47,093 nt of DNA from Jaenimonas drosophilae. Lineage: Eukaryota; Euglenozoa; Kinetoplastea; Trypanosomatida; Trypanosomatidae. The stretch spans positions 1 to 47,093 of the forward strand of contig JASAON010001525.1 of the NCBI GenBank assembly GCA_030849065.1, given 5' to 3'. The notes beneath the pieces were generated by a model. It saw only the letters and a list, made by a program, of their open reading frames with translations. It had not been told where the DNA came from and did no database searches. Position numbers and translations under genes: made by a program. Positions 3,478 through 44,390 of the stretch are shown here, piece after piece. How positions within the stretch are numbered: position 1 is the first letter of the stretch; each line of letters starts with the position of its first letter.

Positions 3478-5688
3478 TCATAAACACGAACCATCCCCAG
3501 TGGCAAGGAAGTCTGTGTCGTTGGGATGTTGTTGTTGCATCAATGGCCGACGGAGATGATCGCGCTCAAGCTGGGGCGAGGTTGGCAGGAGTGGCGAGAG
3601 CACATCCTCCATCTCCATCTCCGACGCGGGCTGGCCCATCAATGGCGGCGTAGGCATCGCCAATTGCACCATCGGGCGGTTCGTTTGATCGAGCAGCCAC
3701 ATGGAGCTCGCGGTGCTATCCATCGTCAAGGTATCGAGGCTCCTACGATGTTGTTGTTGTTGTTGTTGTTGCTGATGAAGAAGATGATCTTTGCCGTGGC
3801 GGAGCTGCTCGGAGAGGTTGGCAGGGAGTGTGTATGTTGGGCTCCGCTGACGTCGCAAAAAGACGTCTACGTCGTTGCGTGATGCGCAACAACCGCGACG
3901 GTGTGCGGGTGAAGAAGTACCAAAGCTGCTGGCAGAGCTACACACACTCATGGCTCGGTGATGAGCATGAGATGTGGCGGATGAGGTGGCTGTGGATGGT
4001 GGTGCGTGCATCAAGCGTGGTGGCAAACGTGTTGGGGAGGCAATGCGCTGCTCCGGCGATGGCATCAGATCCTCCATCACGAGGTGCTCCATGCTCAAGT
4101 TGAGGCTGCCATCATCAACGGAAGAATGCCGGCTGCTCTCTCTCTCCTCCACGGGCACCTCCACCACCGCGGCGGGCGTTGATACCAACGACATGGCCGG
4201 CGGCATGGGCAACGGTGTGGGGTGGCCTGCACGTACGTGGCGCTGATCAACCAACCACGCCTGACTGAGCTCTGCCACACCACCACCAACCACAACAACA
4301 CCGCCAACAACATCAACCTCATCATCATCATCCTCTTCACCAAAAGCGGGAAGAGGGCCCATCGCCTTGCGTAGATTGGCGAGCGCGCTACTTTCCACGG
4401 GTGCTGAATCAGATGTGCCAGTGATGTCGGTGCTCTCTCCGGGCAGCATCGCCTCCACGGCGGTGATGGACTCAAAGTGCATCGCGTAGATGCTGCGCTG
4501 AATAAAAGATGATGGCGCATGCGCATCATCAACGCTCAGCGCACCGCCACCAACGCCACTGAAGATGTTGCGGCTATCATTTTGTGAGTCGGTGCGTGCG
4601 AGCCAACAACCACGCTCGAGGGTCAGGCTGGAATCGATGCGCGACATGGTGCCATCGTGATCGTGTTGGGTGGCGAGGCTGCCACGGCTGCTGGTGCTGG
4701 CGGAGTAGAGGTCGGCAGAGTTGAGGTGGCTCTCACCCATCACAACCATGGCGGTGTTGTTGTTGTTGGATATGTTGCGGAAGGGCGTCAGGGAGGAGAT
4801 GCGGTGCGACGCAGAATGATGATGATGATGATGATGATGGCGATGGTGATGATGTTGATGATGTGTGTGGCGTGTGTGGGGTTGTGTGCTGGAGGAGCTC
4901 AACAGGGTGAGGTGGCCGAGCTCCTCGTTGGGGAGATCATCCGCCTCCTCGGCGACCCCACGTCGCTGCACCTGTGGCGCGTGAGATGACGTGGATGGCA
5001 GTGGTGAGCTGTTGCTGTTGTTGAGGTGGTTGGTTGTGGCGGGTGTCCCTTCAAATGGTGTGCTGTCGTGGAGGGCGGAGAGGTTGCTGGCCACGGATGG
5101 GATCATCAGTGATGAGTGAAATGGCACGAGCACCGGTGAGAGGAGCGCGAGACGCGGTGGCGTTGTTGGCGTGGAGGCATCGCCCGACGATGTCGGCGGT
5201 GCGCGCACGCCGCAATCACGATGTTGGGAGCGATGCAGCTCACGCAGTTGATCCTCTTGTACCTCAATGGGCTGACCCATCATCACACGCTCGCCATCCA
5301 TCTTGTTGTTGTTGTTGTTGTTGTTGTGAGTGGCGATGGAAAACGATGGAGGTGCGGCCACGGAAGGACCCCACAAACGCGCAGATCCCAGCGCACCACG
5401 CGTTGATTGCGGAGGTGGCGGCAGCCGGCTCATGTTGGCGCTGGAGCTCACGCGACGCATCGAGGCGGCAGATGAATGAAGCGAGGTGGCCAACGCACAT
5501 GTCGAGGTGGTGTTGATGGGGTGTGGCGTGGTGGTGGAAGAGGAGGGGCTCATCTTCATGCTCCTTCGCGGGTGCGCGTGCGGTGTTGGGGCGGCGGAGA
5601 GCGGCAGCGCAAAGAGCGGCAACGTTGACGGTATTGGTGCCTCGCCACGTGCAGAGGTGTTGGCGGTGTTGCCAGATCTGGGCAGCAT
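3478..5688 (-). CDS. A2: tandem-family protein with motifs 1 and 2, 736 aa
   Basis: Function is unknown. From the ATG at 5688 the protein has 736 residues (start MLPRSGNTAN). It is Ser/Pro/Thr-rich with no signal peptide or membrane segment. Seven Asn lie near 122-128, a His-rich run near 275-291, an Asp/Glu patch near 451-456 and eight Gln near 640-647. Motif 1 is MHFESITAVEAML at about 403-415; motif 2 is LANLRKAMGPLPAF about 20 residues later. Both match A3 best (motif 1 RFDSLTQVENVL; motif 2 RHAMG), and A3 is the adjacent gene. The frame stays open upstream to an ATG at 5940, but that extension is encoded by CA-repeat and pyrimidine-rich DNA that looks like a leader. I prefer 5688; 5940 is the alternative if splicing occurs further upstream. 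Confidence 0.8.
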   Translation of the reverse strand: MLPRSGNTANTSARGEAPIPSTLPLFALPLSAAPTPHAHPRRSMKMSPSSSTTTPHPINTTSTCALATSLHSSAASMRRVSSSANMSRLPPPPQSTRGALGSARLWGPSVAAPPSFSIATHNNNNNNNKMDGERVMMGQPIEVQEDQLRELHRSQHRDCGVRAPPTSSGDASTPTTPPRLALLSPVLVPFHSSLMIPSVASNLSALHDSTPFEGTPATTNHLNNSNSSPLPSTSSHAPQVQRRGVAEEADDLPNEELGHLTLLSSSSTQPHTRHTHHQHHHHRHHHHHHHHSASHRISSLTPFRNISNNNNTAMVVMGESHLNSADLYSASTSSRGSLATQHDHDGTMSRIDSSLTLERGCWLARTDSQNDSRNIFSGVGGGALSVDDAHAPSSFIQRSIYAMHFESITAVEAMLPGESTDITGTSDSAPVESSALANLRKAMGPLPAFGEEDDDDEVDVVGGVVVVGGGVAELSQAWLVDQRHVRAGHPTPLPMPPAMSLVSTPAAVVEVPVEERESSRHSSVDDGSLNLSMEHLVMEDLMPSPEQRIASPTRLPPRLMHAPPSTATSSATSHAHHRAMSVCSSASSFGTSSPAHRRGCCASRNDVDVFLRRQRSPTYTLPANLSEQLRHGKDHLLHQQQQQQQQHRRSLDTLTMDSTASSMWLLDQTNRPMVQLAMPTPPLMGQPASEMEMEDVLSPLLPTSPQLERDHLRRPLMQQQHPNDTDFLATGDGSCL

Positions 5689-5791
5689 CGGCCAATGAAG
5701 GACGCGTGCGTCGTGATGATGATGTGCGTGTGTGTGAGGGTGGATGGATATATGCGGAGGAGTGGAGCCACACACACACACATGTGCTACT
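5689..5791 (-). promoter_or_regulatory. Probable leader and splice acceptor of A2
   Basis: A pyrimidine tract at about 5840-5822 (minus strand CCTTCATCTTTGTTTCTC) is followed by AG at 5791-5790 and again at 5788-5787. The leader then holds CA/TG repeats and a short upstream ATG at 5783-5781 in another frame. A second candidate is the (CT)n tract at 6100-6082 with its first AG at 6014-6013, which would make the in-frame ATG at 5940 the first one available. Confidence 0.35.
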
Positions 5792-8112: not shown

Positions 8113-8122
8113 CGAAGGCTCT

Positions 8123-9526
8123 CTATCGAGCGGAGAGCTCACTCAGCTCATCTCCCGGATCATCAGGACCTCCACGTGAGTGAATGGAAGAGCGCGAGGG
8201 AAAACACCGTCGCTGCGGTGATGGAGCGGGCGAAGTAGAGCTACCGCCGGTACCACAACGCGAGCTGAAAGAGCTGGCGTTGCTGCTCTTCCCCGGAAAG
8301 CGCGAGGAGTGCAGCGATACACTCACGCTGGGCAGCAACAAACGGCCATCGACGCGCGCACTGTTGCTGACGGGCGAGCGATGCACCAAATTAAGAAAAT
8401 GTTTGCATGTGTGGTCATGATCTTCATGTACTGCCTGCATCGAGAGGCTCTCCTCGCGCACAATGGCGGGGAGCGAGCTGCGCCCGCTGTATGCGCCACT
8501 TCCATCTTTTCTTTCTGAGAAGCCCATGTGGCCCATGGCGTGGCGCACTTGTTGTAGTGAATCGCTAATCGGCACGGCACCGACCAGTGAGTAGTCCGCG
8601 GAGCTCCCGCCATCTTCTTGCTCCATCTCCTCCAACACGTTTTCCACCTGCGTGAGGGAGTCAAAGCGGAGGTCGTGGCTGGTGTTGGTGCTCGTGAGTG
8701 CCACACGTTGCAAACCATCTCCCCCGCCGCCCACACTGCTGTACGCGTGTGGGGCCCACCAACGCAACACCGCGGCGTGAGTCTTGTGCGTCGCGACGGG
8801 AGGCAGTGTCAGTCGCAGGCTCACATCTAGCTCGGCGGCTGATTCTACACGATGTGTGTGTGGCGCTCTCTCCGCCAACGTCGCCTCGCGTTTGCCCGAG
8901 GAGGAGCTCCGGCGGCGGTGATGGCGGCGTCGCGGCTCACTGTGCGGGTCAGGCGAGCGCTGCATCGCCATGGCACGCGCACTGCCGCTGTTGTGCCGTG
9001 CGAGCGGGCGGAGGTGCGGCACCCCGCCACTTCCGCACGATGGCCGCGAGGCGGATGAGTTCAGCCCCGAGCCGAGAGATCCCGAGCGCCGCCACGACCC
9101 GCCGTTGCTGCCGCTCGCGAGGCTGGGGCAGTCCATGAATGTAACAACGCTCCCCGACGCACTGCGAAGTGTGGTGGCGGGCAGCAACTCCTGCCCTGGT
9201 GTGTTGCTGCCAACCACAGCCCCAACACCTCCGCGTGTTGTGCCATCCAGCTTCGGGGGCATCTTGGCCCACCACTGTTGTAGATGCGTGCTGCTGAGCT
9301 GTGGTGGTGGCGGCGAAGGTGGTGTTGGGGTGTGCGCGCGATGATGTGGCGGGTAGTGGAGCTGCGATAGCGTGCCAACGAGACTGACGTTGGAGCTGGT
9401 GAGATCAGAGTCGCTGCGGTGCAGCACCGAATTGCCGAAATGTGGGTGGCGGCCTGACGCGTGTGCGCCACAGTCTGGGCGTGTTGTTGAGGCCTCGGCC
9501 AATGAAGTAGGTGGTGAGGAGGCCAT
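8123..9526 (-). CDS. A3: tandem-family protein with motifs 1 and 2, 467 aa
   Basis: Function is unknown. The protein starts MASSPPTSLAEAS and is rich in Ser, Gly, Pro and His. It has a basic patch near 199-213 (RRRHHRRRSSSS type) and no membrane segment. Motif 1 is LRFDSLTQVENVL at 286-298; motif 2 is LQQVRHAMGHMGF at 324-336. The order and roughly 25-residue spacing resemble A2. The motif-1 core SLTQV is also in A10. An S-P-Q-R-R site lies near 436-440. The tail S-I-H-S-R-G-G-P at 447-454 resembles S-R-G-S-P near the end of A9. The start is the first ATG after an AG at 9604-9603 and is well supported. The conserved blocks make it very unlikely to be a chance frame, although most of the length is low complexity. 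Confidence 0.85.
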   Translation of the reverse strand: MASSPPTSLAEASTTRPDCGAHASGRHPHFGNSVLHRSDSDLTSSNVSLVGTLSQLHYPPHHRAHTPTPPSPPPPQLSSTHLQQWWAKMPPKLDGTTRGGVGAVVGSNTPGQELLPATTLRSASGSVVTFMDCPSLASGSNGGSWRRSGSLGSGLNSSASRPSCGSGGVPHLRPLARHNSGSARAMAMQRSPDPHSEPRRRHHRRRSSSSGKREATLAERAPHTHRVESAAELDVSLRLTLPPVATHKTHAAVLRWWAPHAYSSVGGGGDGLQRVALTSTNTSHDLRFDSLTQVENVLEEMEQEDGGSSADYSLVGAVPISDSLQQVRHAMGHMGFSERKDGSGAYSGRSSLPAIVREESLSMQAVHEDHDHTCKHFLNLVHRSPVSNSARVDGRLLLPSVSVSLHSSRFPGKSSNASSFSSRCGTGGSSTSPAPSPQRRCFPSRSSIHSRGGPDDPGDELSELSAR

Positions 9527-12174: not shown

Positions 12175-14481
12175 CTAAATCGACGACGCCTGATCTACAT
12201 TTATGAGCTCACCTCCGCCAACACACTCGCCAATGATGATGCTTGCCGGGCAGTGAAGTCTGGAGGAGGTCAAGCACTCCAGCGACGACGTTGAGGATGA
12301 GATGGCGGCGGTTGCAACGGAATACACCGTCGATGGCACCATCACATCCGCCGCAGCTGATGGTGATGTGCTGGTGCAGCTCGCTGCTCGCAGCAGCCAC
12401 GATGCGCGTGGAATGTGCTCCTGCAGACATGTTGATGGGGCATCCATGTGAATCGAGAGAGATGTTGCGAGATCCGTTGAGGAGTCATCTTGAGCGGGAT
12501 GGGTTGGGGGAGAAGATGGCGGCAGTGGCAGAACCGGCGCCATGGCAAAGATGGAGGTGGAAATGGATGATGATGCACGCATGTTGTTGTTGTTGTTGGC
12601 AACGCCACCCTCGTACTGTGCCGTAGAATTGCGTCGAAGTCGCGGCTGTGGTAGTTGTGGTTGATCCTCATCGATGCACGTGGCGCCAGTGACGAAGGAG
12701 GAGGAGATGCTGTACTCCTGTGATACGCACACAGGGTGGTGGTGGCGCACACCAGCCAGCGGAGGTTCCAGCGGGGTTTCCCAAGACATGGCCGCCATGG
12801 TGCGATTGAGTTCCGCCGTGCCCGCCGATGATGTGGATGCCGCCGGCATCAACGGAGGAGGACTTGCGGCACTCCTCACAGCTACATCACTTGTGGCAAC
12901 GTGGGGTACGACAGCCTCATCCTCATCCTCATCATCTACATCATTTACATCCACATCATTTACAGCTTCGTCGTTCAGATTCTCTCCCTCCTCCACGCCC
13001 TCATCCTTGTGCTCCTCGTCGGGCTCTGCGCCAAAGGAGCCAAAACCGCCGAAAAGTGAGAAGAGTCCCGCGCTGTCGCGCATCTTTTCTTGCATCAAAC
13101 GCAGCGACGGGCTAATCTCTTCCGGCTGCAGCACGAACTGCGCCAACACCTCCGCACTCGGTGAGCCAGGCTCCTCCGCCGTGGCACCTTCACCCCAGTG
13201 TTGTTGTGTGCGTGAGCTGTTGCCCGCTCGAAAGCTGTGGTAGCTGCCGTCCTGCTTCAGTGGCGATGAGCGTGCAACAGCCGCCATCTCGCTGTTGGTC
13301 GTTGATTCTGCCTCCTCGCCATCGCCAATCAATACAGAAACGGTCGGGCAGAAGGAGACGCACACACGTCGAGGGCTGCGTTGATGGCTTGGATGGTTGC
13401 TGTGGCTGAAGCCCAAGCTCACGCTGGAGTTGTTGGCATCGTGGATGGAGGTGAGGGAATCATCGGAGATGGTGCGGCGTCCAACCACGTCCGAAGTGAA
13501 TGAGCGGCGATGCACAATACGCTCAAGTGAAACTAAACTCTCAGATTCTTCTTCCTCATCACGTTGCGCACCATCATCATCATCATCATCGTCGTTCTCT
13601 TCTTCTTCATCTCCATCACCTTCGTCTTCTTCTACTTCCTCCTCCTCGGTGATACCATGAACCACAATATCCTCCACCTCGTCTTCCTCCAACACATCAT
13701 CGTGCAAAATACCGTCGAGCACCACAAGTGTTGGCAACAGCGGTGATTGGCAGCTGCGCAACACCTCATCCTCCGCCCCAACCGCCTCCTCCAAGATGCG
13801 CCGTTGGGGGCGCAGCGAAACCAGCGCCGACGACGCCGATCGCGCCGCGATGATGGGCGATGGCAGAGCAGATATGGTGATGGTGGCAGAAGAGATACTC
13901 ACGTCAACGGGCGAGGCTGGGTTCGACGACTGCAGGAGCACGTCATCTTCATGTTTCGGGCTGTTGCGTCGGCGGTTGCGCTGAGAGTGTGTCTGTGGTG
14001 GTTGTGGGAAGAAGGCGCCATCATCTGCGGGAGCACTACAGCGCAAACGTGGAAGATGGCCCGTTGAGCTCGTTGATGATGCAACAACCATTTCTGAATG
14101 CATCTTGTTGATGGAGGGGGCCGAAAAGGATGGACCAACGAGGTGCGCAGATGGCGCGTTGGAGAGTATCATCGGGAAGGTGAAGGTGGTCGGGCTGTGC
14201 TCAATGGGGCTCGCTGGGCGACGGGGCAGGCTTGGATAAACTGGTCGGAGCAACATCGTCCCGCCAGCATGTTCCTCCTCCTCTTCCTCCATCTCATCAT
14301 AACAGACGATGTTTGGATTAGATTTAGATTTGCTCGGGCGGCATTCTTCACGTGGCAAACACTTTGGTGGCAGCTCCATCATCGAAGCCACTTGCCGGCG
14401 TATACGGTTGTGATAAATTGGCCGCGAGAGGCTGCTCGCGCTAAAGCTCTTCTCCATCTCTGGAGATGCACGATGATGCAT
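12175..14481 (-). CDS. A4: probable tandem-family protein, acidic, 768 aa
   Basis: Function is unknown. This is the largest member, starting MHHRASPEMEKSFSA. It has six Glu near 70, a very acidic region near 272-312 ending in seven Asp, and a second acidic stretch near 497-524. It has no signal peptide or membrane segment. A S-P-R-R site directly precedes CVSFCPTVSVLIG (about 370-382), a weak motif-1 relative closest to CVSFLSLTQV in A10. SLRLMQEKMRDSAGLFSLF near 458-476 resembles motif 2 with a Phe/Gly-rich tail. Membership therefore rests on motif 2, position, size and composition. The start is well supported: it is the first ATG after a classic CCCCCTGCAG acceptor 47 bases upstream. Confidence 0.8.
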   Translation of the reverse strand: MHHRASPEMEKSFSASSLSRPIYHNRIRRQVASMMELPPKCLPREECRPSKSKSNPNIVCYDEMEEEEEEHAGGTMLLRPVYPSLPRRPASPIEHSPTTFTFPMILSNAPSAHLVGPSFSAPSINKMHSEMVVASSTSSTGHLPRLRCSAPADDGAFFPQPPQTHSQRNRRRNSPKHEDDVLLQSSNPASPVDVSISSATITISALPSPIIAARSASSALVSLRPQRRILEEAVGAEDEVLRSCQSPLLPTLVVLDGILHDDVLEEDEVEDIVVHGITEEEEVEEDEGDGDEEEENDDDDDDDGAQRDEEEESESLVSLERIVHRRSFTSDVVGRRTISDDSLTSIHDANNSSVSLGFSHSNHPSHQRSPRRVCVSFCPTVSVLIGDGEEAESTTNSEMAAVARSSPLKQDGSYHSFRAGNSSRTQQHWGEGATAEEPGSPSAEVLAQFVLQPEEISPSLRLMQEKMRDSAGLFSLFGGFGSFGAEPDEEHKDEGVEEGENLNDEAVNDVDVNDVDDEDEDEAVVPHVATSDVAVRSAASPPPLMPAASTSSAGTAELNRTMAAMSWETPLEPPLAGVRHHHPVCVSQEYSISSSFVTGATCIDEDQPQLPQPRLRRNSTAQYEGGVANNNNNMRASSSISTSIFAMAPVLPLPPSSPPTHPAQDDSSTDLATSLSIHMDAPSTCLQEHIPRASWLLRAASCTSTSPSAAADVMVPSTVYSVATAAISSSTSSLECLTSSRLHCPASIIIGECVGGGELINVDQASSI

Positions 14482-16359: not shown

Positions 16360-17490
16360 CTAATGATCATCATCATCACCATCATCCTTCTCATCCTCTC
16401 CGTCTTGTGCCTTGGGTGAAAAGAAGAGTGCGCCCCACGACTTCTTCATTTGCCGCATCGCCATGAATTTATCACTGTGCCGTGTTGTGTTGTTTTCCAT
16501 CAGCGGCACAACGTCGGGCGTACCTTGTTCAGGTGAGTTTGGCTCCGTCAAGGCAATGGAAGATACGTGAAGGCCATCATCTGCATCCACGCCCAGATTG
16601 CATGTATTGGTTGGCACATCAACATTGGTGCGATGGCGGGTGTTGCTACTCGAGACAAGAATCGAAGGCCCAGCGTGCGGAGCTACAACCGTGGGCAGTG
16701 CCTCACTCATCTCACGCACACACGCACCACCTCGTTCTCTTACACGTTCATCATCATCATCATCAACATCATTCTCATCCTCATCAGAAGAGGAGGAGAA
16801 GGAGGGTATGTTATCCACGAGGGGAGGCCCCTCCAGGCCACCAACGCTCGGCAGACGGCGGCTGTGTCGCGGAGTGGCAGAAACTTTCACCTCCTCCGAC
16901 TCATTCTCAGTTTCCACGGAGTTGTTTGAGTTGGTGGTGGAGTCCAAGAGACGAAAGCTGCCATGCTCCAGATGGCGGCCAACCTCGTGAGATGCTTCGG
17001 TTGGGACACGAATGAGGCACGAACGTGGCTGACGTCGATGCCCAAGTGGGTGCGGACGTACATCCTCCACCATGCTCATCTTCACCACCTCCGTCACGAT
17101 GGCCTCGTCCGTGCCAACCTCCAACAACTCAATCGGTGTGGTGGTTAGCGTCTCGTCAATGGAGCGGCGCTGCTCAGAGCTACCTGCACTTGCCGCACGC
17201 ACACATGTACGTGTGCCACTCGATGTAGTGGCATTCACGATGGATGCATCAAATGCCGTGGTTGGTTGTGGAGGTGGGGTAGCTACTACGCCATGTTGTC
17301 CGCGTGGTGAGGTGCGACGAAATGACGATGATAATCGGCATTGATGTGCATCAACGCCATCCATCTTCGGCCGCAACACCTTTGATGGCCGCTCCTTCAC
17401 ACCAATGCGGCCAACGCTCATGATGGAGCAATACCTGGCCGAGTTAGTTCCTCCACCGTTGTAGGGCACATGGCTTCCTACACAGCTCAT
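16360..17490 (-). CDS. A5: probable tandem-family protein, 376 aa
   Basis: Function is unknown. The protein starts MSCVGSHVPYNGGG and has an acidic Ser/Asp/Glu region at 231-248 and an Asp-rich C-terminus at 365-376. It has no membrane segment once the upstream pyrimidine-derived hydrophobic extension is excluded. Motif 2 is clear near the C-terminus: MAMRQMKKSWGALFF at 343-357, with Trp five residues before Phe as in A6, A9 and A10. Motif 1 is degenerate: either LHVSSIALTE at 307-316 or IPSFSSSSDED at 228-238. R-H-S-R-R and R-T-S-P-R basic/proline sites occur. The ATG at 17490 is the first after an acceptor AG at 17533-17532. Its coding-like start and poly-pyrimidine flank fit the other genes. 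Confidence 0.78.
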   Translation of the reverse strand: MSCVGSHVPYNGGGTNSARYCSIMSVGRIGVKERPSKVLRPKMDGVDAHQCRLSSSFRRTSPRGQHGVVATPPPQPTTAFDASIVNATTSSGTRTCVRAASAGSSEQRRSIDETLTTTPIELLEVGTDEAIVTEVVKMSMVEDVRPHPLGHRRQPRSCLIRVPTEASHEVGRHLEHGSFRLLDSTTNSNNSVETENESEEVKVSATPRHSRRLPSVGGLEGPPLVDNIPSFSSSSDEDENDVDDDDDERVRERGGACVREMSEALPTVVAPHAGPSILVSSSNTRHRTNVDVPTNTCNLGVDADDGLHVSSIALTEPNSPEQGTPDVVPLMENNTTRHSDKFMAMRQMKKSWGALFFSPKAQDGEDEKDDGDDDDH

Positions 17491-19586: not shown

Positions 19587-20150
19587 CTACTCCTCTGTGG
19601 TGGTTTCTACTACAGCACCAGCTCCACACGCACTGTGTGGGGATGTCGGATCCATCACCTCATTCATGGTTGTTGTGGCACCTCCACCACCGTTGGAGAA
19701 GCGATTCATATTCATGTTGGCCGCTGATTTTCCCATCTCGATACCGTTAAAGCGTACAAAGTTCCAGTTTGCCAAGTTGGCCTGCATATCGTGCAACACG
19801 GGGCTGTGAAGCATCTGGCTCGCTGTGCTCAGGACGGAGATGTCTCCACCTCCCACACTTCCACGACGTTCAGGAAGCGCCAACGGGTGCTCTGCAGCTG
19901 CTTCAGCAGCATCGGCACCATGACGTGTTTGTGTGGAGCGCTGCGGGCTTTGAGGGCGCAGTTGATCTACGGAGATGAAAGAGAGGAATGCTGGTACACT
20001 TCCATGATCCATGGTTGTATCGCTTGTGCGTCTGCTTGGGGTGGCGGTGGTTGGTGGCAAGGGGCCGGCGAGAGGGTCCAGAGACATACACGTCATGGAA
20101 AGTTGTGTTTCAGCATCCAACTCCAGTGGCTTGCTACGACTGAGCTCCAT
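19587..20150 (-). CDS. A6: smallest tandem-family protein, 187 aa, both motifs
   Basis: Function is unknown. This is the minimal member and so the most informative. It starts MELSRSKPLELDAETQ. Motif 1 is SVPAFLSFISVDQL at 51-64; motif 2 is VLHDMQANLANWNFVRF at 118-134, so the two lie about 53 residues apart. The core N-W-x-F-x-x-F matches A10 exactly. The linker is Ser/Arg/Gln-rich with an Ala/Glu stretch. P-S-R-R-T-S sits at 38-43 in place of the usual S/T-P-R-R. The tail has Gly/Thr/Asn runs (150-187). There is no signal peptide or membrane segment. The ATG at 20150 follows a GTG codon, so this is the only reasonable start. Because the protein is almost only the two motifs plus linker, it argues that these are the functional core. 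Confidence 0.82.
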   Translation of the reverse strand: MELSRSKPLELDAETQLSMTCMSLDPLAGPLPPTTATPSRRTSDTTMDHGSVPAFLSFISVDQLRPQSPQRSTQTRHGADAAEAAAEHPLALPERRGSVGGGDISVLSTASQMLHSPVLHDMQANLANWNFVRFNGIEMGKSAANMNMNRFSNGGGGATTTMNEVMDPTSPHSACGAGAVVETTTEE

Positions 20151-26360: not shown

Positions 26361-27647
26361 TTAGTTGCACGATTTCGCGCGTGTTGTGGAGTAGTGCAGG
26401 CCCTCATCACTCCCGCAGGAGCTGTGCCGCATGTGCTGCCGCGCCGCACGTGGGAGGAGCGCCTGCCAATCTCCGGTTGATGTGATGGAGGCTACGGCAA
26501 TGGGAACGAAGGTGCCATCGCTCGCGCTATCTGCCCCTGTTGAGTGCATGGAGGCGGCGGTGAGGTTGGTGAAGGATACACAAGACTTACTACGTTGATG
26601 CGTCGCGAGCCCAACAACCTCGTGGAGGCCGCGGTGAGGTGGGGCCCGCACCAGAGATGCCGCCTCAATCACGTAGTTGCTATCGGAAGGCTGTAGCACC
26701 ATCATGCCCGTCGCTCTCCGCAGCTCTGACCCGTCCCGAACGTGATGCACGCCACTACCTTCCACATCAACACTTCGTTGCGGGTTGCGATAGCGCCAAC
26801 GTGGTGTATGTATTGGTATCGGAGAAGCATCCCCGCTCGGAACTTCCTCACAGTGCAGATCATCCACCATTGGGAAAGAGATAAAGTCTGGCACGGAATG
26901 ATTCTCTTCCTCCTCCAACGTGCAACAGCTGGAGTTGGCCGCCAGGGAGCCGTACGCCACGAGATCATCTTCATCCTCCGTCATCGCCTCCGCCACCCCA
27001 TCGCCCATGGATCGATGGCGGCGCGGAGAAAACCGCAGCTGTGAAAGAACAGGACGAGTGAGTAGGGCCATGGATTCACGACGGCTGTTGGCCCATCCTC
27101 CGCCACTCCCGCCCACGCCAACAACACCGCTACTCACGGGCAGAGGCGAGGCCATCACGGGAGAGCCGTTGGTGGAGAGGCCCACACTCTCCTCAAGCCA
27201 CGGAAGGCCACCCTGCTTCGCACCATCCATCATCATCATCACCTCTGCGTTGATGTTGTTGTTGGGGGCGGCTGAACGGCTCCACCCAGCGAGGAGTGAG
27301 GAGGCCTGCTGCCCGCGCCGCGGCACAATCATTCGTCGCGGAGAGGCCGTGGTGGTGGAGGCGGGATTCACTCGTGGGCGTGGCGCCAACCTCCAACCAT
27401 CCATCCCAGGTGTGCTGTTGTTGCTGTTGCTGTTGTTGTTGGCGTTGGTGGTATTCAGGAAGTTGCTCGCACTCACCCGCGACTCCCGTCGTGGTGTGCG
27501 TGGGAGGCACATTGGCAGGCTCATCGCGTGCGCCTCGGCGAGATTTACGCCGCTCCCCACGTTGGGAAACATCGCCGCCGTCGGCAGCGGCATGTTGCGC
27601 GGGCTGAGAGGGGTGGCCAGTGATGTGGGAGGGGGCTGCGGTAGCAT
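26361..27647 (-). CDS. A8: tandem-family protein with motif 1, 428 aa
   Basis: Function is unknown. It starts MLPQPPPTSLATP. Three proline-directed basic sites are present: T-P-R-R at 51-54, S-P-R-R at 102-105 and S-P-R-R at 207-210. Asn runs lie near 68-78 and four Met at 137-140. Motif 1 is SVPDFISFPMVDDL at 251-264, nearly the same as A6 and A11. Motif 2 is weaker: SELRRATGMMVLQ at 307-319. A second CVSF-type sequence, SCVSFTNLTAASM at 355-367, resembles motif 1 of A10. There is no signal peptide or membrane segment. The start is supported by an acceptor at 27789-27788 and a CA-repeat leader. Confidence 0.83.
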   Translation of the reverse strand: MLPQPPPTSLATPLSPRNMPLPTAAMFPNVGSGVNLAEAHAMSLPMCLPRTPRRESRVSASNFLNTTNANNNSNSNNSTPGMDGWRLAPRPRVNPASTTTASPRRMIVPRRGQQASSLLAGWSRSAAPNNNINAEVMMMMDGAKQGGLPWLEESVGLSTNGSPVMASPLPVSSGVVGVGGSGGGWANSRRESMALLTRPVLSQLRFSPRRHRSMGDGVAEAMTEDEDDLVAYGSLAANSSCCTLEEEENHSVPDFISFPMVDDLHCEEVPSGDASPIPIHTPRWRYRNPQRSVDVEGSGVHHVRDGSELRRATGMMVLQPSDSNYVIEAASLVRAPPHRGLHEVVGLATHQRSKSCVSFTNLTAASMHSTGADSASDGTFVPIAVASITSTGDWQALLPRAARQHMRHSSCGSDEGLHYSTTRAKSCN

Positions 27648-30097: not shown

Positions 30098-31975
30098 TTA
30101 ATGCCAGCTGCCGCTTGTGTTTGGTGAGCCACGTGAGTTGATAATCTGCAGTGACGATCGCAGTGATTGGGCGGAGGAGAGTGCGCCAACGGGCCGGCGC
30201 ATGTGGTGCGACTGAAGGCTTACTCCAGAAGATACGGTATTGGTTGTTGTTGTTGTTGTTGTAGTGGTGCGTGTGGCTCCTCCAAGGCTGCGATGCTCTG
30301 CGTGTTGTGGTCCTACAGCAGCATCGATGTCCCACGGAGCTCCATCCAGAATAGTGGATTGCATGCTCAACGGGCTTGGAATATCCCTCGACGCGATGGC
30401 AGAGCTGCGCATGGAGCCCGCATCGTGAGCCACGAGATGCGAGCTGTTCGTGTGCTGCTGCTGCTGGTGATGATGAGGTTGGTGGTGGCTGCCACTATCG
30501 GCGAAGTGAGGCAGCAGCCATGCAGCTTTATCCTTCTCCAGATCCTTCCATTGCGGGCTGCGCTCACTACTTGGCCTGAAGTATGAAACAACCCCACTGA
30601 CATCTACAAACATATCCATGCTGTCGTTGCTCACCTCCATGAGGGAGTGTGATGGCCGATGAGCCTGGCGATGCAGAGCCGCATCGAGCTGCGACACCGA
30701 CATGAAGCTCGGAATCATGGATGAGCTAATGAAGGGGTTAGAGCGTGGGCTCGGCACCTCGTTGTTGCTGTTGATGTGGTCGAGCTGTAGGTGGTGGTTG
30801 TGTGCGTGGTTGTGGGCCCGTGAAAGTGCTTGATGGGGAAGATTCACGACGGAGAGGGTGTCGGAGTAGTCAGTCATGCGCGTCTCGAGCTCATGGGCAT
30901 CACTACTGCCAACTGTGGATGGATTGGATGAGGTGCGGAGGTGCTCCATCCCAGAACAAATGAGTGGATGCTCGCAACCTCCCAAACGTGCGCTCATGTG
31001 GTTTACCTCTGCCGCCCCTTCGTTATGCTCCGCCGCCAAGAAGCTGGAGGAGCGGCCTGCATGGATGAGCGGGTGCGTCATGGGCCGCTCCCCCACAGGC
31101 ACGAGGAGGCGATGTACGTGCGCCTCTGCCTCACCACCACCCGTCGTCTCACCGAGGCTGGAGGCATCTGGGTATCGGTTGTGTGGCAAGGTGGTTGGGC
31201 TGCCGCCATGGCTGGATAAGATGCTACAGCCACAGCCGCTGCTCAGCTCGCCAAACTCTCCACCACCTTTGCAGTGGTTGGGGTTGTGAAGGAGGGTCGT
31301 GGGGCGAGCGGAGCTCATCACCTCCACACGCTCACCAAGACGTGCTTGAGCATGTGGCGAGAGCACAGAGGCACGTGCCGTGTCGTGCGAATCTTCCAGG
31401 AAGGGGGTGGGTGTGTGGCATGTTGGTGCCGCCTCCACCCCTGGAAGTATGAGGCGAGCAGGTGATTGTGGCTGGTGCTGCGGGAGGGATGCATGTGGTG
31501 GCCGGGCTGTTGCTGGTCGCGGGCAGGTCGTATGTGGCCAGTGTGGCGGGTCTCGCATGATGATGGCCGTTTGTGGTGGTGCAGTGGTGGCGCTGTCGTA
31601 GGCCAGCGTGGCACCAAACACATCGTCCACCGAAGAGGATGTGCTGCTCGCGCAAGATTCATCCGCCGCCTCCACGACAGTTGCGTCGTGTTGGGCGATG
31701 GTGATGGGCGCTGGACGTGGTCGGCGCAGTACCCACACAAAAGGTTGTGTGTTGGCGTCTTTGCGTGTGGTGGCTGGTGATGGCCCCTTCCCCCGTGGCG
31801 AAGGAGGTACGTTGATGCTCACCTTCATTGGTGAACGTCGTGGAGTAGTGCGTGCTCCCCACACCGGAGATGATGCGGGGGAAACACCACCACGACGTGG
31901 CGTACTCGGTGATGAGGGCGGGGTACGAGAGGGTTGGCGATTGCCGTTCGTCGTGTTTGTTGTTTGCCCGGTCAT
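30098..31975 (-). CDS. A9: tandem-family protein with motifs 1 and 2, 625 aa
   Basis: Function is unknown. It starts MTGQTTNTTNGNRQPS. The first ~70 residues hold repeated proline-directed sites (T-P-R-R twice, S-P-M-K). Motif 1 is IPSFMSVSQLDAAL at 421-434; motif 2 is WKDLEKDKAAWLLPHF at about 476-491, matching A10 with Trp five residues before Phe and Phe-Ala following. His/Gln-rich and nine-Thr tracts follow. The C-terminus carries S-A-Q-S-L-R-S-S-L, then S-R-G-S-P. No membrane segment occurs in this frame. The hydrophobic upstream extension is encoded by the pyrimidine tract and is excluded. The start is very well supported: a long T/C tract, AG at 32010-32009, then a 33-base leader. Confidence 0.87.
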   Translation of the reverse strand: MTGQTTNTTNGNRQPSRTPPSSPSTPRRGGVSPASSPVWGARTTPRRSPMKVSINVPPSPRGKGPSPATTRKDANTQPFVWVLRRPRPAPITIAQHDATVVEAADESCASSTSSSVDDVFGATLAYDSATTAPPQTAIIMRDPPHWPHTTCPRPATARPPHASLPQHQPQSPARLILPGVEAAPTCHTPTPFLEDSHDTARASVLSPHAQARLGERVEVMSSARPTTLLHNPNHCKGGGEFGELSSGCGCSILSSHGGSPTTLPHNRYPDASSLGETTGGGEAEAHVHRLLVPVGERPMTHPLIHAGRSSSFLAAEHNEGAAEVNHMSARLGGCEHPLICSGMEHLRTSSNPSTVGSSDAHELETRMTDYSDTLSVVNLPHQALSRAHNHAHNHHLQLDHINSNNEVPSPRSNPFISSSMIPSFMSVSQLDAALHRQAHRPSHSLMEVSNDSMDMFVDVSGVVSYFRPSSERSPQWKDLEKDKAAWLLPHFADSGSHHQPHHHQQQQHTNSSHLVAHDAGSMRSSAIASRDIPSPLSMQSTILDGAPWDIDAAVGPQHAEHRSLGGATRTTTTTTTTTNTVSSGVSLQSHHMRRPVGALSSAQSLRSSLQIINSRGSPNTSGSWH

Positions 31976-34419: not shown

Positions 34420-36255
34420 CTATGCCCACTCTGCGCTATCATCCGCGGCGTTTTGTTGCTCCATCGACTGCAGCGACATGGAGGACGGAGATGCGCACAC
34501 ACGCATACCAAAACTTCCATGTGAGAGAGATGGGCTGTGCCGCTCCGCCTTGCACGCGCTGCTGACGCTGTTGGTTGTTCGTGGCGCAGCAGCCGCGGCG
34601 TTCTGCCTCCGTCGTCGTACGCCAACCTTGCTCATCCACACCTGCTGCTCGCTCTCTTCCATGCTACGCACACGGCTGTGGCTGCTGGGTTGTTGTCGTG
34701 AGGTGCTGGGGCTGCGTATGGACCCCACACCACAACCACAACTCCCGCGGAAGTGCTCCAGACTTCGATTCCCTGTGGTTGTTGGTGATGATGGCGTGGA
34801 GGATGGGTTGGATCTTAGCCTGCCGCTCGCGAAGGGTGCGAAGGCCCAGTTTCGTTTTTCCTCGCGCAACTTATTAAAAGCGGAGGAACGCGTCCACGGA
34901 GGGCGCCCACCCATGGCGGAGGCAGCGTTGGGTGAGGGGCAACAGGCACTGCCATCCACGGCAAGCAGATGCGGAAGATGCGCATGCCCATGCTGTTGTT
35001 GTGGCGGCGTTGGGCTGTTTCGCGCCAGCCTACCTCCACACAATTCACACTCCCCGCCACCTATACTGAGCTCCATCCCCGCACACACACAACGTGACTG
35101 ACGAAGTTGCGGGAGTTGTGTGGTGGTGCCGTAACTCGTGCTGTCGCTCTCCAAACGTGGCGAGTGCAACAACAGATCAACCTGAGTGAGAGAGAGGAAG
35201 CTCACGCAGAGATGTGTGTTGCTGCTCGCTGGGTTGTTGTTGGTGGAGATGGGGGATGATAGGAGCGAGGTGGCCTGCATGTTCTCAGCGGCCTCATCCT
35301 CCATGCCCTGCACGGAGAGCGAAACAAGCTGATCCACGATGGAAGATGATGCTGCTGCCGCACCACCTGCTGATGCCGTTGTTGTTGTTGTTGTTGTTGC
35401 ATGTGGCACACATGCAACAAGAGGGCTTGTGGGGCTGGATGATGTTGGTGTGGCCACGATTGCCTGAGGTGGCGCATGCTCCATTGGCACATTTATCTCC
35501 TCCTCCATGAGCCGGTTGCGTGGAGGTGATGGGAGGAGGTCCGTCGTGGGCACCATGGGTGCATTGTAACAAGAATGAGATGGTGCGCGCAGTGGTTGAA
35601 TGGCTCGACGTAGGCCCATAGGGCTCCTTGGATCCTCAACGTACACATGTGTGGTGCTCAAGAACCGTGAGTGGCCCCACGACGGGCTCGCCGGCGATTC
35701 GCTTTCTTCCGTCGATGGCACGTCATCCATCCCGCTGAAGGTACCAACGGAGGTTGGGCGCCCCGCAACAACACCGCTGAGCGACGGATGCAACGCGTTG
35801 GCACGAAGACTGCCGTGGTAGCTCCACATGGAGGAGCCCTCCACCTCCTTGGCATCGTTGTGCGTCAGTGGTGCTTGATAGTCTCCGCTGTGCAAACTAA
35901 ACGAGCCGCCATCTACACGTGATAAGCGCGGGCCCATCCGCAATGAGCACGCATCATTACATCCTGAGGTGGCACTGCTGCTGCTGCCCACACGTTGGCT
36001 CCTCGCGTCTTCGCCACGGCTGCCGCTGGTGATGGAGGTTGTGTGGGAGTCATCATGAACCCACGCACTTCCAATGGGCTCCAGGCTATCAACCCAAGGT
36101 GCTGCCGCTGCATCTGCGCACGATTGCGATGCACGCAACTCTGAACTGACGCCGTTCTCCTGTGGCGGTGTGGCTGATGGCGATGCATCCACAAAATGTG
36201 TGCGTGCACCCATTGGTGGTAGGCTTGCCCACCGTCGCTTGCGCTCCAGCTGCAT
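34420..36255 (-). CDS. A10: tandem-family protein with motifs 1 and 2 plus a Cys cluster, 611 aa
   Basis: Function is unknown. It starts MQLERKRRWASLPPMG. Motif 1 is SFLSLTQVDLLL at about 352-363 (the SLTQV core is identical to A3). Motif 2 is FNKLREEKRNWAFAPF at about 460-475 (N-W-x-F-x-x-F as in A6; Phe-Ala follows as in A9). Between them, near 389-407, is C-V-C then C-E-L-C-G-G, a C-x-C...C-x-x-C arrangement that could bind zinc but matches no family I know. Ala and Thr tracts occur, with five Ala near 552-556, and the C-terminus has M-S-L-Q-S. There is no signal peptide or membrane segment. The ATG at 36255 lies only 7 bases after the predicted acceptor, so the true start could be the in-frame Met at residue 15. 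Confidence 0.84.
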   Translation of the reverse strand: MQLERKRRWASLPPMGARTHFVDASPSATPPQENGVSSELRASQSCADAAAAPWVDSLEPIGSAWVHDDSHTTSITSGSRGEDARSQRVGSSSSATSGCNDACSLRMGPRLSRVDGGSFSLHSGDYQAPLTHNDAKEVEGSSMWSYHGSLRANALHPSLSGVVAGRPTSVGTFSGMDDVPSTEESESPASPSWGHSRFLSTTHVYVEDPRSPMGLRRAIQPLRAPSHSCYNAPMVPTTDLLPSPPRNRLMEEEINVPMEHAPPQAIVATPTSSSPTSPLVACVPHATTTTTTTASAGGAAAASSSIVDQLVSLSVQGMEDEAAENMQATSLLSSPISTNNNPASSNTHLCVSFLSLTQVDLLLHSPRLESDSTSYGTTTQLPQLRQSRCVCAGMELSIGGGECELCGGRLARNSPTPPQQQHGHAHLPHLLAVDGSACCPSPNAASAMGGRPPWTRSSAFNKLREEKRNWAFAPFASGRLRSNPSSTPSSPTTTGNRSLEHFRGSCGCGVGSIRSPSTSRQQPSSHSRVRSMEESEQQVWMSKVGVRRRRQNAAAAAPRTTNSVSSACKAERHSPSLSHGSFGMRVCASPSSMSLQSMEQQNAADDSAEWA

Positions 36256-37873: not shown

Positions 37874-39298
37874 TCAGGCCCATGAGCTCAGCACCGACAT
37901 GGGTGAGCTGTTGCTGCTGCTACTGACGAAGGAGAAGCTTCCCAGAGCTTGGCGCTGTGTGCGAGTCCCGTAGCGCCGTTCATGCGCGCTGGGTGGCAGC
38001 GCACCCTCGCCAACATGTCTTGTGGTTTGTGAGAAGAGGATTGGTGAGTTGTGCATCTGCTGAATGGAGCTCGCCATGGTGGGCGGAGATGGTGTTCTGA
38101 CCTCCACCATCAAACCTTGAAGCTCGTCGTGCATCAGCATCTCACCCTGATCTTCCTCATCTTCGGCATCTTCGGAGCTGTTGTATGGGATAGATTGCAG
38201 TGAAACAGCACTTTCCGCGCTACCAACACGCAGCCATGCATCCAACACTGTCGTTGGCTGCCACTCCGCTGATGGTGATGTGGGGCGTGCCATCGCATCT
38301 TCATCTGCCGCGCACCCACGCCACGCATACACATCACTGCGCATCTTCTCTTGTGACTGTGAAGGTTCCACATCGCCAACATGAAGTGAGGGAAGAAGTT
38401 GCTCCTGAGAAAGTTGGCGATGGTAGTGCGTGGCGTGTACCACCACAGCACTTCCATCATCGTGTGAGCTCTTGGTGTTGGTGTTGGTGTTGCTGCTTGT
38501 GTGGGTTGATGCTGCATCAAGATCCCCACGTGAAACGAAGGTAGGCAGCATCAAGCACATAGGCGTGGGTGTGAAGGGAGAGCACACGCCATTAGCCTCA
38601 TCATCATCATCATCAAAACCATCCACAGCAGCGCGGCGCTGGCCGACGTTCTGTTTCATGCTACTGCTGCTACGACTACTCCGTACGTAGTTGCTGCGGC
38701 TTGTTTCACGTCGAATACGTTGCAGGATGGATTCTACGCGTGAGAAGGAAAGGAAGTGTGGCACCGAAGGTGTGTTGGTGAGGGTTGAAGCATCCTCACA
38801 GCTTGGGCTACGTGAGGTGGCGTTGGTGTTGACGTGGAGATGGCGCAGCTCACGTAGGGGCCCCTTGGTGTTGTTGCGGCTCATCCAGCAACGTGAGCGG
38901 CTGCCATCACGTCGGAGTGCTGGGAACGCTTCCTTCGTGCGCAGTGGTGAAGACGGAACCTCCACAACGCGTGGGCGCGTCGATGTTGGTGTGGGTGGTG
39001 AAGGTGAAGAATGTTGCGTCGCAGGCGGAGATGGGGCCACACCACGTCTGTCAGCTGCTGCAGTGCGTCCGAGGGTGGTGCCCGCTGCCGGCTCACCTGA
39101 TGCTCGTCGTGGTGTGCTCATGCGTGCCGAGGCCTCCTCCTCCCCCATCATACTTGCATCGTGGCTGTGGTAGCTCCCGCTGCTGCACACAGAGAGATGT
39201 AGGCTCCTCTCTTCAGAATTGATGGGTATGCTGTGTGAGTAGCACAACACCAGCAAGCCGTCGTCCACCGCACCTCTCCCCTCACAACTTGACAACAT
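37874..39298 (-). CDS. A11: tandem-family protein with motifs 1 and 2, 474 aa
   Basis: Function is unknown. It starts MLSSCEGRGAVDDG. T-P-R-R-A-S lies at 62-67, followed by a Pro/Ser/Thr-rich region. Motif 1 is SVPHFLSFSRVESIL at 178-192, nearly identical in its first half to A6 and A8. A second motif-1-like copy, LPTFVSRGDLDAA at 251-263, resembles A9. Acidic patches lie at 229-234 and 376-386. Motif 2 is SSIQQMHNSPILF at 410-422. The protein ends M-S-V-L-S-S-W-A, matching H-S-V-L-S-S-F-V of the adjacent A12. No signal peptide or membrane segment is visible. The start follows an acceptor AG at 39364-39363 by 64 bases. Confidence 0.85.
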   Translation of the reverse strand: MLSSCEGRGAVDDGLLVLCYSHSIPINSEERSLHLSVCSSGSYHSHDASMMGEEEASARMSTPRRASGEPAAGTTLGRTAAADRRGVAPSPPATQHSSPSPPTPTSTRPRVVEVPSSPLRTKEAFPALRRDGSRSRCWMSRNNTKGPLRELRHLHVNTNATSRSPSCEDASTLTNTPSVPHFLSFSRVESILQRIRRETSRSNYVRSSRSSSSMKQNVGQRRAAVDGFDDDDDEANGVCSPFTPTPMCLMLPTFVSRGDLDAASTHTSSNTNTNTKSSHDDGSAVVVHATHYHRQLSQEQLLPSLHVGDVEPSQSQEKMRSDVYAWRGCAADEDAMARPTSPSAEWQPTTVLDAWLRVGSAESAVSLQSIPYNSSEDAEDEEDQGEMLMHDELQGLMVEVRTPSPPTMASSIQQMHNSPILFSQTTRHVGEGALPPSAHERRYGTRTQRQALGSFSFVSSSSNSSPMSVLSSWA

Positions 39299-39390
39299 TG
39301 ATGATAATTCAAACAGTGATGATGTTGGTGTTGTTGTCGGCGTGAATGAAGAAAGGTGAGGTCTATTTGGATCAAAAAAAAAAGAAGATA
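39299..39390 (-). promoter_or_regulatory. Probable splice acceptor of A11
   Basis: A CTTCTTTTTTTTTT tract on the minus strand (about 39388-39374) is followed by AAATAG with AG at 39364-39363, giving a 64-base leader. Confidence 0.5.
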
Positions 39391-41651: not shown

Positions 41652-41690
41652 ATGCTCCCCCAAACAATCACTTCGTTTGGGAGGGAGCAT
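41652..41690. repeat. Imperfect inverted repeat
   Basis: ATGCTCCCCCAAAC at 41652-41665 and GTTTGGGAGGGAGCAT at 41675-41690 pair along their whole length with a two-base bulge around a nine-base loop. Confidence 0.75.
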
Positions 41691-43103: not shown

Positions 43104-44390
43104 CTAAACAAATGATGAGAGCACTGAGTGGAAGGCCGTCCCTTGTGATGAGTCCGGCGCGTAGTTTGGCGCGGCGTGCAACATCAGGTCGCTGAGTGAG
43201 CGCGCAGGAGAGGCGATGGAGAGCGGCCGGGATGGCTCTCCGGAGCGATGGCAATCTTGTGTGGAGCATGCTGGGTTAAACTGCACGAGGCCGAGCTCCT
43301 TCATTTGCTCTCTGGCCTGGGTGAGCTCGTTCGTCATGATGCGCGCACGACGTGAAGATGGCCGTCGCATCGGTCGAGGCCCCCCGGCGGTGCGCCACTG
43401 CGGCATGACTGTGCGGCCCACATTGAGAGGGGCGGGGCTAGTTGGCGAGGTCGGCGCACTAACCTCCTCACGTGCGCGCTGGGCAGAGAAGGAGCTCATG
43501 CCGCTGCTGGAGCAGGCGATGAGCTCTTCATCATCAGCCTCACGTCGCAGTTCTGCCTCTAGCCGTGAGATAGACATGAATTGTGGGATGGATTGCGTGG
43601 AGAGGTCGCGGCCGTTGACGTCAGGGCGTGGGGCAACGTAGCTGGGTTCCCCACCACTGTTGTAGCTGCTGTTGTTGGTGGTGGTAGTGATGGTGGTATT
43701 GCACCCGACACTCACAACGCTAGACTGTAGCGTACTTGCGTTGGTGTGTGGGCGGGAGTGGGAGGTAGCTAGGGGATTATCCTCCGGTCGTCGAAAGGAT
43801 GAGGTGCGTCCTGCACCACCGGTGGAGAGGCTGTACTGCGATGTGCCTCCATCACCATGGACGATCGTCCGTGTTGTTGTGGCAGATCGCGCGCTACTTT
43901 TGCGATGCCACGAATTGGTGGAAGCAAGCCGACGAGGAGGTATATAGGTGAGAGGTGCCGCACCATCACAATCACCGGGAAGCGCACCGCTCCAGATGGA
44001 GAGGTCCTCCATGGGAAGGAGCTCCTCTCCTACATGAAACTGACCCACGCTACCGTTGGCGGAGCTCCGTGGAGGCTGACTAAGCTCACAGATCTCCTTG
44101 GCGCAGCAGCCCAGAACGGAGCTCCCCCGTGAGTGGCTGTGCGCCTCAGCCATTGCCGTCGGCGCACTCGTGTCGAGCGACGGGCAGAGAATAGAAACGA
44201 GGGTCTGTGGCTGACCTAGTGGAGGTGCGGTGTGGTGGGGAGGGTGTGCATGCCGTGCCGTGTATGTACTTCCATGGCGGTAGCACAAGGGTGATGAAGG
44301 CGGTGGGGCATCATTCAACGGGGACGAGACGGCTGTGGAGCTCAGTGAGAGCATGCCAGCATCGTCCTCCAGCCAACTGCTGCTGGGCAT
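43104..44390 (-). CDS. A12: tandem-family protein with motifs 1 and 2, 428 aa
   Basis: Function is unknown. It starts MPSSSWLEDDAGMLS. Thr/Asn-rich sequence lies at 231-245 and an Arg-rich patch at 342-350 (R-R-P-S-S-R-R). Motif 1 is SIPQFMSISRLEAEL at 268-282, continuing into a charged helix-like stretch. Motif 2 is LTQAREQMKELGLVQF at 356-371, with the hydrophobic spacing of A6 and A10 but Leu in place of Trp. The protein ends H-S-V-L-S-S-F-V, like A11. There is no signal peptide or membrane segment; the upstream hydrophobic frame extension is leader DNA. It is the first family gene after the DUF1935 gene in transcription order. The start follows an acceptor at 44525-44524, and the 133-base leader contains a perfect 7-bp hairpin. 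Confidence 0.85.
   Translation of the reverse strand: MPSSSWLEDDAGMLSLSSTAVSSPLNDAPPPSSPLCYRHGSTYTARHAHPPHHTAPPLGQPQTLVSILCPSLDTSAPTAMAEAHSHSRGSSVLGCCAKEICELSQPPRSSANGSVGQFHVGEELLPMEDLSIWSGALPGDCDGAAPLTYIPPRRLASTNSWHRKSSARSATTTRTIVHGDGGTSQYSLSTGGAGRTSSFRRPEDNPLATSHSRPHTNASTLQSSVVSVGCNTTITTTTNNSSYNSGGEPSYVAPRPDVNGRDLSTQSIPQFMSISRLEAELRREADDEELIACSSSGMSSFSAQRAREEVSAPTSPTSPAPLNVGRTVMPQWRTAGGPRPMRRPSSRRARIMTNELTQAREQMKELGLVQFNPACSTQDCHRSGEPSRPLSIASPARSLSDLMLHAAPNYAPDSSQGTAFHSVLSSFV

Follow-up and report, generated by a model that had tools for sequence, protein, structure and literature searches.

Among kinetoplastids, short peptides set in fast-changing proteins and gene blocks copied in order have both been described. 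In Trypanosoma brucei, duplicons on chromosomes 4 and 8 span 0.5 Mb, with 47% of the duplicated genes kept on both, and Jackson (2007, PMC2212663) has their paralogues mostly under negative selection and their non-coding DNA either conserved or entirely remodelled. The LC3-interacting region (LIR) peptides that bind ATG8 in kinetoplastids, as covered in PMC10903960, are short, linear and of shallow ancestry, and some of them lie in disordered proteins. Two further families, the small calpain-related proteins with a DUF1935 domain (PMC7912814) and the receptor-type adenylate cyclases of kinetoplastids (PF25493 with PF00211), enter the comparison by position: DUF1935 genes adjoin, and cyclase genes flank or interrupt, both copies of a gene array in the trypanosomatid Jaenimonas drosophilae, which is the subject of this report. 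The array was met on contig JASAON010001525.1 of assembly GCA_030849065.1 (18.8 Mb in 370 contigs), whose 47,093 nucleotides are called the window here (contig C234 in our numbering). Unlike the calpain-related proteins, the members of the array have no DUF1935 domain, and unlike the cyclases they have no folded receptor and catalytic domains. As in the T. brucei duplicons, a trypanosomatid gene block is present twice with its order kept; unlike them, the block consists of 17 genes (A1 to A12, B1 to B4 and one DUF1935 gene), mostly a single disordered set, with all twelve A genes paired and the spacers wholly remodelled. Tandem multigene families with linear motifs are a known kind, and this family and its two peptides are undescribed in the sources searched.

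Between positions 3478 and 44390 of the window lie eleven open reading frames (ORFs), A2 to A12, sequential and all on the minus strand, as the first-pass annotation had described them; with A2 at 736 amino acids, the reported protein lengths of 187 to 768 amino acids fit as well. All array genes share that strand, and the spacers between them measure 1.4 to 3.8 kb. The reading that we favour, at a probability of roughly 0.55, is that the array encodes an undescribed kinetoplastid family of disordered, probably cytosolic adaptors, in which two short peptides dock on a shared partner.

The first peptide, motif 1, begins with P-x-F-x-S. It was examined with leave-one-out profiles, each protein being scored by a profile built without it and compared with 300 block shuffles. 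No shuffle scored as well as A2 (3478..5688, motif 1 at 4444..4485), A6 (19587..20150, motif at 19956..19997), A9 (30098..31975, motif at 30674..30715), A10 (34420..36255, motif at 35167..35208), A11 (37874..39298, motif at 38723..38764) or A12 (43104..44390, motif at 43548..43589), and three did so for each of A3 (8123..9526, motif at 8633..8674) and A8 (26361..27647, motif at 26853..26894). These are the eight carriers named at first sight, and unguided motif discovery on A2 to A12, in which the best eight of the eleven sequences were always kept, returned exactly the same eight at a width of 20, with a score of 297.9 against a mean of 273.9, a standard deviation of 4.4 and a maximum of 286.2 in 30 shuffles. 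A cruder unguided run that kept all eleven sequences reached 106.0 at a width of 16, against at most 81.1 in eight shuffles, though several of its sites missed the motif; at a width of 14, run without shuffles, it landed on motif 1. The F and the S are invariant in all 19 of the motif 1 instances chosen. Motif 1 is absent from A4 (12175..14481) and A7 (23052..24221), where 260 and 217 of the 300 shuffles did as well, and the best match in A5 (16360..17490; 6/300) falls in a stretch that is not kept in the partner of A5.

Motif 2 also emerged from unguided discovery, at a width of 14, with a score of 216.1 against a shuffle maximum of 197.7 in 30 shuffles; eight sequences were forced into this run, so that memberships such as those of A4, A7 and A11 are not individually significant. 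When the sites were held out in turn, none of the 300 shuffles equalled A10 (34831..34878) or A12 (43278..43325), one equalled A9 (30503..30550), four A6 (19749..19796) and 63 A3 (8519..8557), the last being a site that is kept in the partner gene. A5, never part of the leave-one-out training, was equalled by four (16420..16467). In A2 another site scored higher (35/300), the site at 4342..4383 coming second and being kept in the partner. The scan of A7, again outside the training, gave 8/300, but at a stretch that differs from the conserved, motif-2-like one at its C-terminus (23073..23114), and nothing was found in A4, A8 or A11 (208, 245 and 144 of 300), the weak motif-2-like stretch of A4 (13060..13104), conserved in its partner, being missed by the profile. 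Motif 2 is therefore weaker than motif 1 in the leave-one-out test. The earlier statement that most members carry it holds, by profile or by partner, for A2, A3, A5, A6, A9, A10 and A12; it fails for A8 and A11 and is weak for A4 and A7. In all six window genes with both motifs, motif 2 lies downstream of motif 1, at a gap of 34 to 110 residues, in agreement with the order first proposed, and with both unguided scores above all 30 of their shuffles the view that chance hardly explains the shared pattern is upheld. An ordered pair of peptides so spaced in fast-changing chains looks like the docking peptides of adaptor proteins.

Further clustered copies, which were anticipated as support for a family, exist in the same assembly. 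Searches outside the window found second genes for A10 on contig C107, for A12 on C131 and for A3 on C160, and A1' on C160 led back to A1; genome-wide searches with A3, A10, A12, B1 and A1' gave two genes each at E 1. C107 carries A6' to A11' and C160 carries A5' to A1', whereas C131 has the order B1, B2, B3, B4, a DUF1935 gene and A12'; order and orientation match those of the window throughout. On C201 a second B1 (B1b) is followed by B2b, B3b, the start of B4b, then a receptor cyclase-DUF1935 fusion and a further DUF1935 gene. Array 1 probably consists of C201 and the window, and array 2 of C131, C107 and C160, the contig joins within the arrays being inferred from gene order; the second array thus holds partners of A1 to A12 plus B1 to B4, with copies of B1 to B4 also on C201, and each array has up to 15 disordered genes (A2 to A12 and B1 to B4). 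Identity over aligned residues is 39, 39, 47, 48, 35, 51, 37, 42, 41, 36, 35 and 52% for A1 to A12 in turn, and 38, 27 and 38% for B1, B2 and B3. Reciprocal best matches were obtained for A1 to A10, A12, B1, B3 and B4, the last weakly (E 0.005-0.017, with B4b truncated where the fetched sequence stops). A11 and B2 have none: A11' is closer to B2b than to A11, and B2 is without a significant match, its pairing being by position only. On C160, A1' is adjoined by a disordered-looking gene X (L034:7347-8636), which has no second copy and marks one edge of the co-linear block.

The divergence between the copies acts as a comparative footprint. In A2 to A12 and B1, copies agree at 104 of 126 positions (82.5%) in motif 1 and at 113 of 147 (77%) in motif 2, a count that takes in A4 and A7, against 1906 of 5792 (33%) elsewhere. 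The proteins are accordingly fast-changing chains in which short peptides, above all motifs 1 and 2, are better kept than the rest, in a one-strand array with a second, co-linear and strongly diverged copy in the same assembly. The copies also bear on the coding status of the frames, which could have been spurious and open merely through base composition, given the low-complexity runs and the long antisense ORFs in the window. Over whole genes the proportion of synonymous sites that differ (pS, 0.64-0.83) exceeds that of nonsynonymous sites (pN, 0.34-0.48) in all twelve A pairs. Corrected synonymous divergence (dS) is at least 1.46 in seven of the twelve pairs and beyond correction in five, and the ratio of nonsynonymous to synonymous divergence (dN/dS) in those seven is 0.25-0.41. 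Within blocks of at least 9/12 identical residues pS is 0.51-0.84 and pN 0.12-0.22, the latter being low partly by the selection of blocks on amino-acid identity, for which reason the whole-gene figures are preferred. This excess of synonymous over nonsynonymous change, seen in every pair, identifies the array genes as real protein-coding genes. Moreover, 16 of the 19 ORFs listed besides A1 to A12 and the right-edge gene were compared with the second array, and 15 of them had no match, the one match being antisense to a conserved block of A4; spurious frames can be set aside with near certainty. No extra conserved genes were found in the spacers among the 16 ORFs, and the only spacer elements common to both arrays were low-complexity matches.

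The second array, in which the gene order is the same, may be a separate locus, as a duplicon would be, or another haplotype. Gene-for-gene co-linearity and similar spacer lengths are what two haplotypes of one locus would give, and the single-copy gene X is what would be seen where haplotypes merge, and equally where a duplication ends. Yet synonymous differences are at or near saturation, and C201 has a cyclase between B4b and the DUF1935 gene where C131 has none. A variant of this explanation has the assembly mixed with DNA from another species, as might be suggested by two HSP60-like genes, whose identity of 43% is close to that of the array pairs. HSP60-like paralogues are known in the kinetoplastid group. 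Two species would be expected to leave close pairs throughout, and the TCP1-like genes argue against them, since they show none: the Cpn60/TCP1 family gave nine matches, among which no two of the seven TCP1-like genes exceed 35% identity, as is usual between distinct subunits. The N-terminus of the RNA polymerase largest subunit gave four matches, one below the cut-off, two of them being near-identical contig ends, those of C43 and C52 (L038, L039), which are 96.2% identical over 579 bases. Taken together, a second haplotype or a second species seems a decidedly improbable source of array 2.

The copies also served as test material for profiles made from the window alone, which were run on the partners, the B proteins and X with 300 shuffles each. 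For motif 1, the partners of all eight carriers were recognised with no shuffle as good, and among the B proteins, all outside the training, the counts were 1 for B1, 0 for B1b, 0 for B2b and 4 for B2, with nothing in B3, B3b, B4 or B4b (58-288 of 300); motif 1 is counted as present in three of the eight B proteins (B1, B1b and B2b). The motif 2 profile, built from seven window sites, recognised the partners of all seven training genes (A2, A3, A5, A6, A9, A10 and A12) at 0/300 each, partners that are not independent of the training genes. It gave 0 for B1, 0 for B1b, 2 for B4, 6 for X, 14 for A7' and 35 for A4', and nothing in B2, B2b, B3, B3b or B4b (72-283 of 300), so that two of the eight B proteins, B1 and B1b, are counted as having motif 2. 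As a control, 58,549 amino acids of frames from 27 other loci gave best scores of 18.4 bits for motif 1 and 16.4 bits for motif 2; carriers range from 18.9 (B1) to 32.8 bits and from 18.7 (B1) to 35.2 bits, respectively, so that B1 clears the control narrowly and most others by a wide margin. Scores below the control were those of B2 for motif 1 (12.4) and, for motif 2, of B4 (15.5) and X (7.2). By eye, a second P-x-F-like stretch lies downstream of motif 1 in A11 (residue 251) and in B2b, with something similar in B2, and IPSFSS in A5 and IPDFSS at the end of B4 resemble the start of motif 1 without its helix.

One question raised by such an array is how far its members share a common ancestor, as the word paralogues in the first-pass annotation implied. 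Comparison with profiles, set against a null of 88 shuffled comparisons (best 24.7), gave 51.7 for A12 with B1 and 52.1 for A11 with B2b. Also above the null are B1-A11 (38.6), B2b-A6 (37.2), B2b-A2 (32.7) and, with a match that lies away from the motifs, B2b-A9 (35.2). The best cross-matches among the A genes lie at motif 1, namely A9-A12 (41.0), A11-A12 (33.5) and A3-A10 (33.1). The best score of B3 is 21.0. At a D-rich stretch of A2, the B4 pair, over 260 residues, scores 25.4 and whole B4, for which the null has no entry, 30.0; against A4, whole B4 scores 27.8. Matches of A1 with A4 and of B4 with X fall at runs of D and were discounted as low complexity, and visual inspection had suggested that B3-A5 and B4-A4 reflect an older co-linear duplication, which profile comparison did not support. 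The neighbours B1 and B2 (C131, 4146-9345; B2b on C201) match the neighbours A12 and A11 (window, 37874-44390) in order. Because B1 and B2b match A12 and A11 in this way, an older block duplication inside the array is suggested.

These scores support common descent well for A12 with B1 and A11 with B2b, and fairly for several motif 1 carriers. For the eleven as a whole, descent from one ancestor falls short of proof: A4, A5 and A7 are tied to the others by their position and by motif 2, which is weak in A4 and A7, and most member pairs match at the motifs only. An alternative denies kinship to part of the set: disordered proteins with separate origins would each have gained both peptides in the service of one partner. 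It would account for the lack of motif 1 in A4, A5 and A7, and for the fact that beyond the paired copies only A11-B2b, A6'-B2b and A11'-B2b match at E 0.01, all at motif 1. However, the genes are neighbours on the same strand and have the same motif order in six of six cases, and the agreement of B1-B2b with A12-A11 is what an older block duplication would leave; separate origin of the members is accordingly regarded as unlikely.

Relatives were sought beyond the assembly, and the libraries and databases searched link none of the genes to a known family, which bears out the remark that no described family has this signature. At the curated cut-off, Pfam has no match in A2 to A12, B1 to B4, X or A1', nor for motif 2 alone, and DUF1935, present in the flanking genes, was not found in A2 to A12 or B1 to B4. 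NCBIfam gave none for the six proteins scanned (A4, A6, A9, A10, A12 and B1). Against 5.8 billion proteins, residues 250-400 of A12 gave 684 candidates and the A4 pair, in a protein search, 7999, none of either at E 1; the protein search needs shared 5-residue words and its control is thin (three matches), so that absence, for the members searched (A12 and the A4 pair), is suggestive only. None of the 81 pattern matches of the A12 pair in viral contigs, nor of the 53 of the A4 pair in prokaryote genomes, was confirmed, as expected for a eukaryotic family. By sequence, the PDB had nothing for A12, and what it gave for the A12 pair and for each of the two motifs was at chance level (best E 0.64, 2.3 and 0.85); no description of the family was found in the open-licence literature, TriTrypDB and closed journals lying outside that search.

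In composition, A2 (from 5688) to A12 have 16-25% serine and threonine and 22-27% order-promoting residues, and hydropathy reveals no membrane span in any of them (19-residue maximum 1.45). Members of the surface or secreted multigene families of kinetoplastids would be expected to have such a span, a signal peptide or both. AlphaFold2 models, made from two-sequence alignments, are of low confidence and disordered, in line with the description given from the letters. The model of A6, at 187 amino acids the shortest member, has a mean predicted local distance difference test score (pLDDT) of 43.4, and its only helix of at least four residues, 117-135, lies over motif 2 (119-134). The model of A12 has a mean of 40.5 and only two such helices: 274-292, with its start inside motif 1 (268-281), and 346-365, which overlaps motif 2 (356-371, 16 residues) over its first 10 residues; ten-residue means peak at 53-54 and 68-69, on or beside the helix stretches. 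By these models, motif 1 appears to open with an extended P-x-F-x-S stretch and to continue as a predicted helix, and motif 2 to run from a predicted helix into an extended end of the form hydrophobic-x-x-F.

Such helices could also belong to structural parts of the flagellate cytoskeleton or the membrane periphery, where the motifs would be amphipathic and anchor the proteins in a lattice or membrane. In favour of this, the A12 model has a predicted helix at each motif, the hydrophobic moment of the motif 1 helix reaches 0.65 in A11 and A12, and the DUF1935 of the flanking genes is a domain of calpain-like proteins, among them H49 of T. cruzi, which the title of a cited paper places at the flagellum attachment zone. 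The moments are nevertheless only 0.05-0.25 in A2, A6, A8 and A10 for motif 1, and go down to 0.06-0.16 in A6, A9 and A12 for motif 2, which leaves no common amphipathic face, and it is single residues, the F and the S in 19/19, that are kept instead. A structural role is for these reasons rather unlikely, if worth keeping in mind. Autophagy receptors or adaptors, with motif 1 as an F-type ATG8-binding peptide with a C-terminal helix, are very unlikely. F-x-x-[LIV] occurs at the invariant F in 10 of the 19 motif 1 instances, the helix of the A12 model starts just after that F, and such networks in relatives of Leishmania are described as fast-evolving in PMC10903960; the array resembles the LIR systems in its short linear peptides. 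Against this, the strict kinetoplastid rule, as given in that paper, fits motif 1 in 2 of the 19 instances and fails in the other 17, the loose rule fits in six, strict matches over all 30 proteins number 13 against a shuffle mean of 12.1, and nine of the 19 instances have F at the last core place.

The adaptor reading would work as follows. Motifs 1 and 2 would fold upon binding, and both would dock on one common partner, or perhaps on two, while the variable chains would set spacing, regulation and further contacts; the array would therefore amount to a set of isoforms of one adaptor. Several observations weigh against it. A4, A5, A7, A8 and A11 lack one motif or have it only weakly, and B3 and B4 have neither clearly, so one partner cannot serve all members alike. 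Other blocks are kept as well as the motifs in several pairs (A3, A4, A5, A9 and A12); the motifs are thus not the sole working parts. The best motif 2 score in unrelated control frames, 16.4 bits, is near the 18.7 bits of B1, and model confidence is low, no residue of A6 and 12 of the 428 of A12 having a pLDDT of at least 70. The docking partner itself is putative. As for regulation, [RK]R-x-[ST] sites number 48 in 28 proteins against 19.6 in shuffles, and serine or threonine after a basic pair is raised at both +2 and +3 (48 and 46 of 157); in the RRxS context these residues are kept in 27 of 51 cases, against 1470 of 3041 overall (pairs read both ways), a further adverse point, and there is at most a weak sign of phosphorylation.

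A bolder version would have some thirty disordered proteins, in two complete parallel sets within one genome, form a dedicated two-peptide docking system, novel in biology, on one kinetoplastid hub, a speculative and rather unlikely proposal; given the cyclase genes at the flanks, the hub might possibly sit in the receptor-cyclase pathway, and the two sets may be ancient, non-recombining versions of one supergene. Unannotated disordered proteins are hard to group by ordinary similarity search. Here a diverged second copy shows the few residues that are kept and yields two testable peptides, and if one hub binds both, up to thirty orphan genes would gain a function at once.

At the left edge of the window lies A1 (1..2118, minus strand), cut by the contig end and without the motifs, whose partner on C160 is 42% identical over the matched part. 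The frame of A2 extends to 5940, but its start is probably at 5688, because the alignment with the partner begins at that ATG; the hydrophobic starts of the A2 frame above 5688 and of the frame upstream of A12' are probably untranslated leader. Rfam and tRNA scans of the window gave no matches. The gene at the right edge (46154..47092, minus strand), also cut by the contig end and not a member of the family, matches DUF1935 at E 1.6e-32 and probably represents, from its alignment, the C-terminal portion of a receptor-type adenylate cyclase with a fused DUF1935, being identical at 125 of 355 aligned places to the end of the cyclase-DUF1935 frame on C201; a protein search with it, which served as the control above, gave three matches (one Strigomonas, one Phytomonas and one unnamed), so that kinetoplastid proteins are present in the collection searched.

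Receptor cyclases adjoin or interrupt both arrays: at the right edge of the window, on C201 (where one separates B4b from the DUF1935 gene), on C131 (ahead of B1) and on C160 (beyond X). DUF1935 has 52 matches in the assembly and the receptor-cyclase domain PF25493 has 94, some of them fragments; neither has matches in 14 control genomes, and together with the Strigomonas and Phytomonas matches this marks the genome as a kinetoplastid's. With 94 domain matches the closeness of cyclases to the arrays may be due to chance and is only a lead. PF25493 represents a large expanded family in this assembly, four of its matches (on C160, C302 and C230) having internal stops. The one open-licence paper found on cyclases, DUF1935 and kinetoplastids names the two domains separately in its passages. 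The frame on C201 (L052:1-3102), confirmed by Pfam, is a receptor-type adenylate cyclase with an in-frame C-terminal DUF1935. Matching frame lengths point to eight such frames, of 1520 (the confirmed one), 1541, 1465, 1271, 1145, 1819, 1663 and 1614 amino acids, and by coordinates they occur, besides C201, on C188, C212, C274 and C368.

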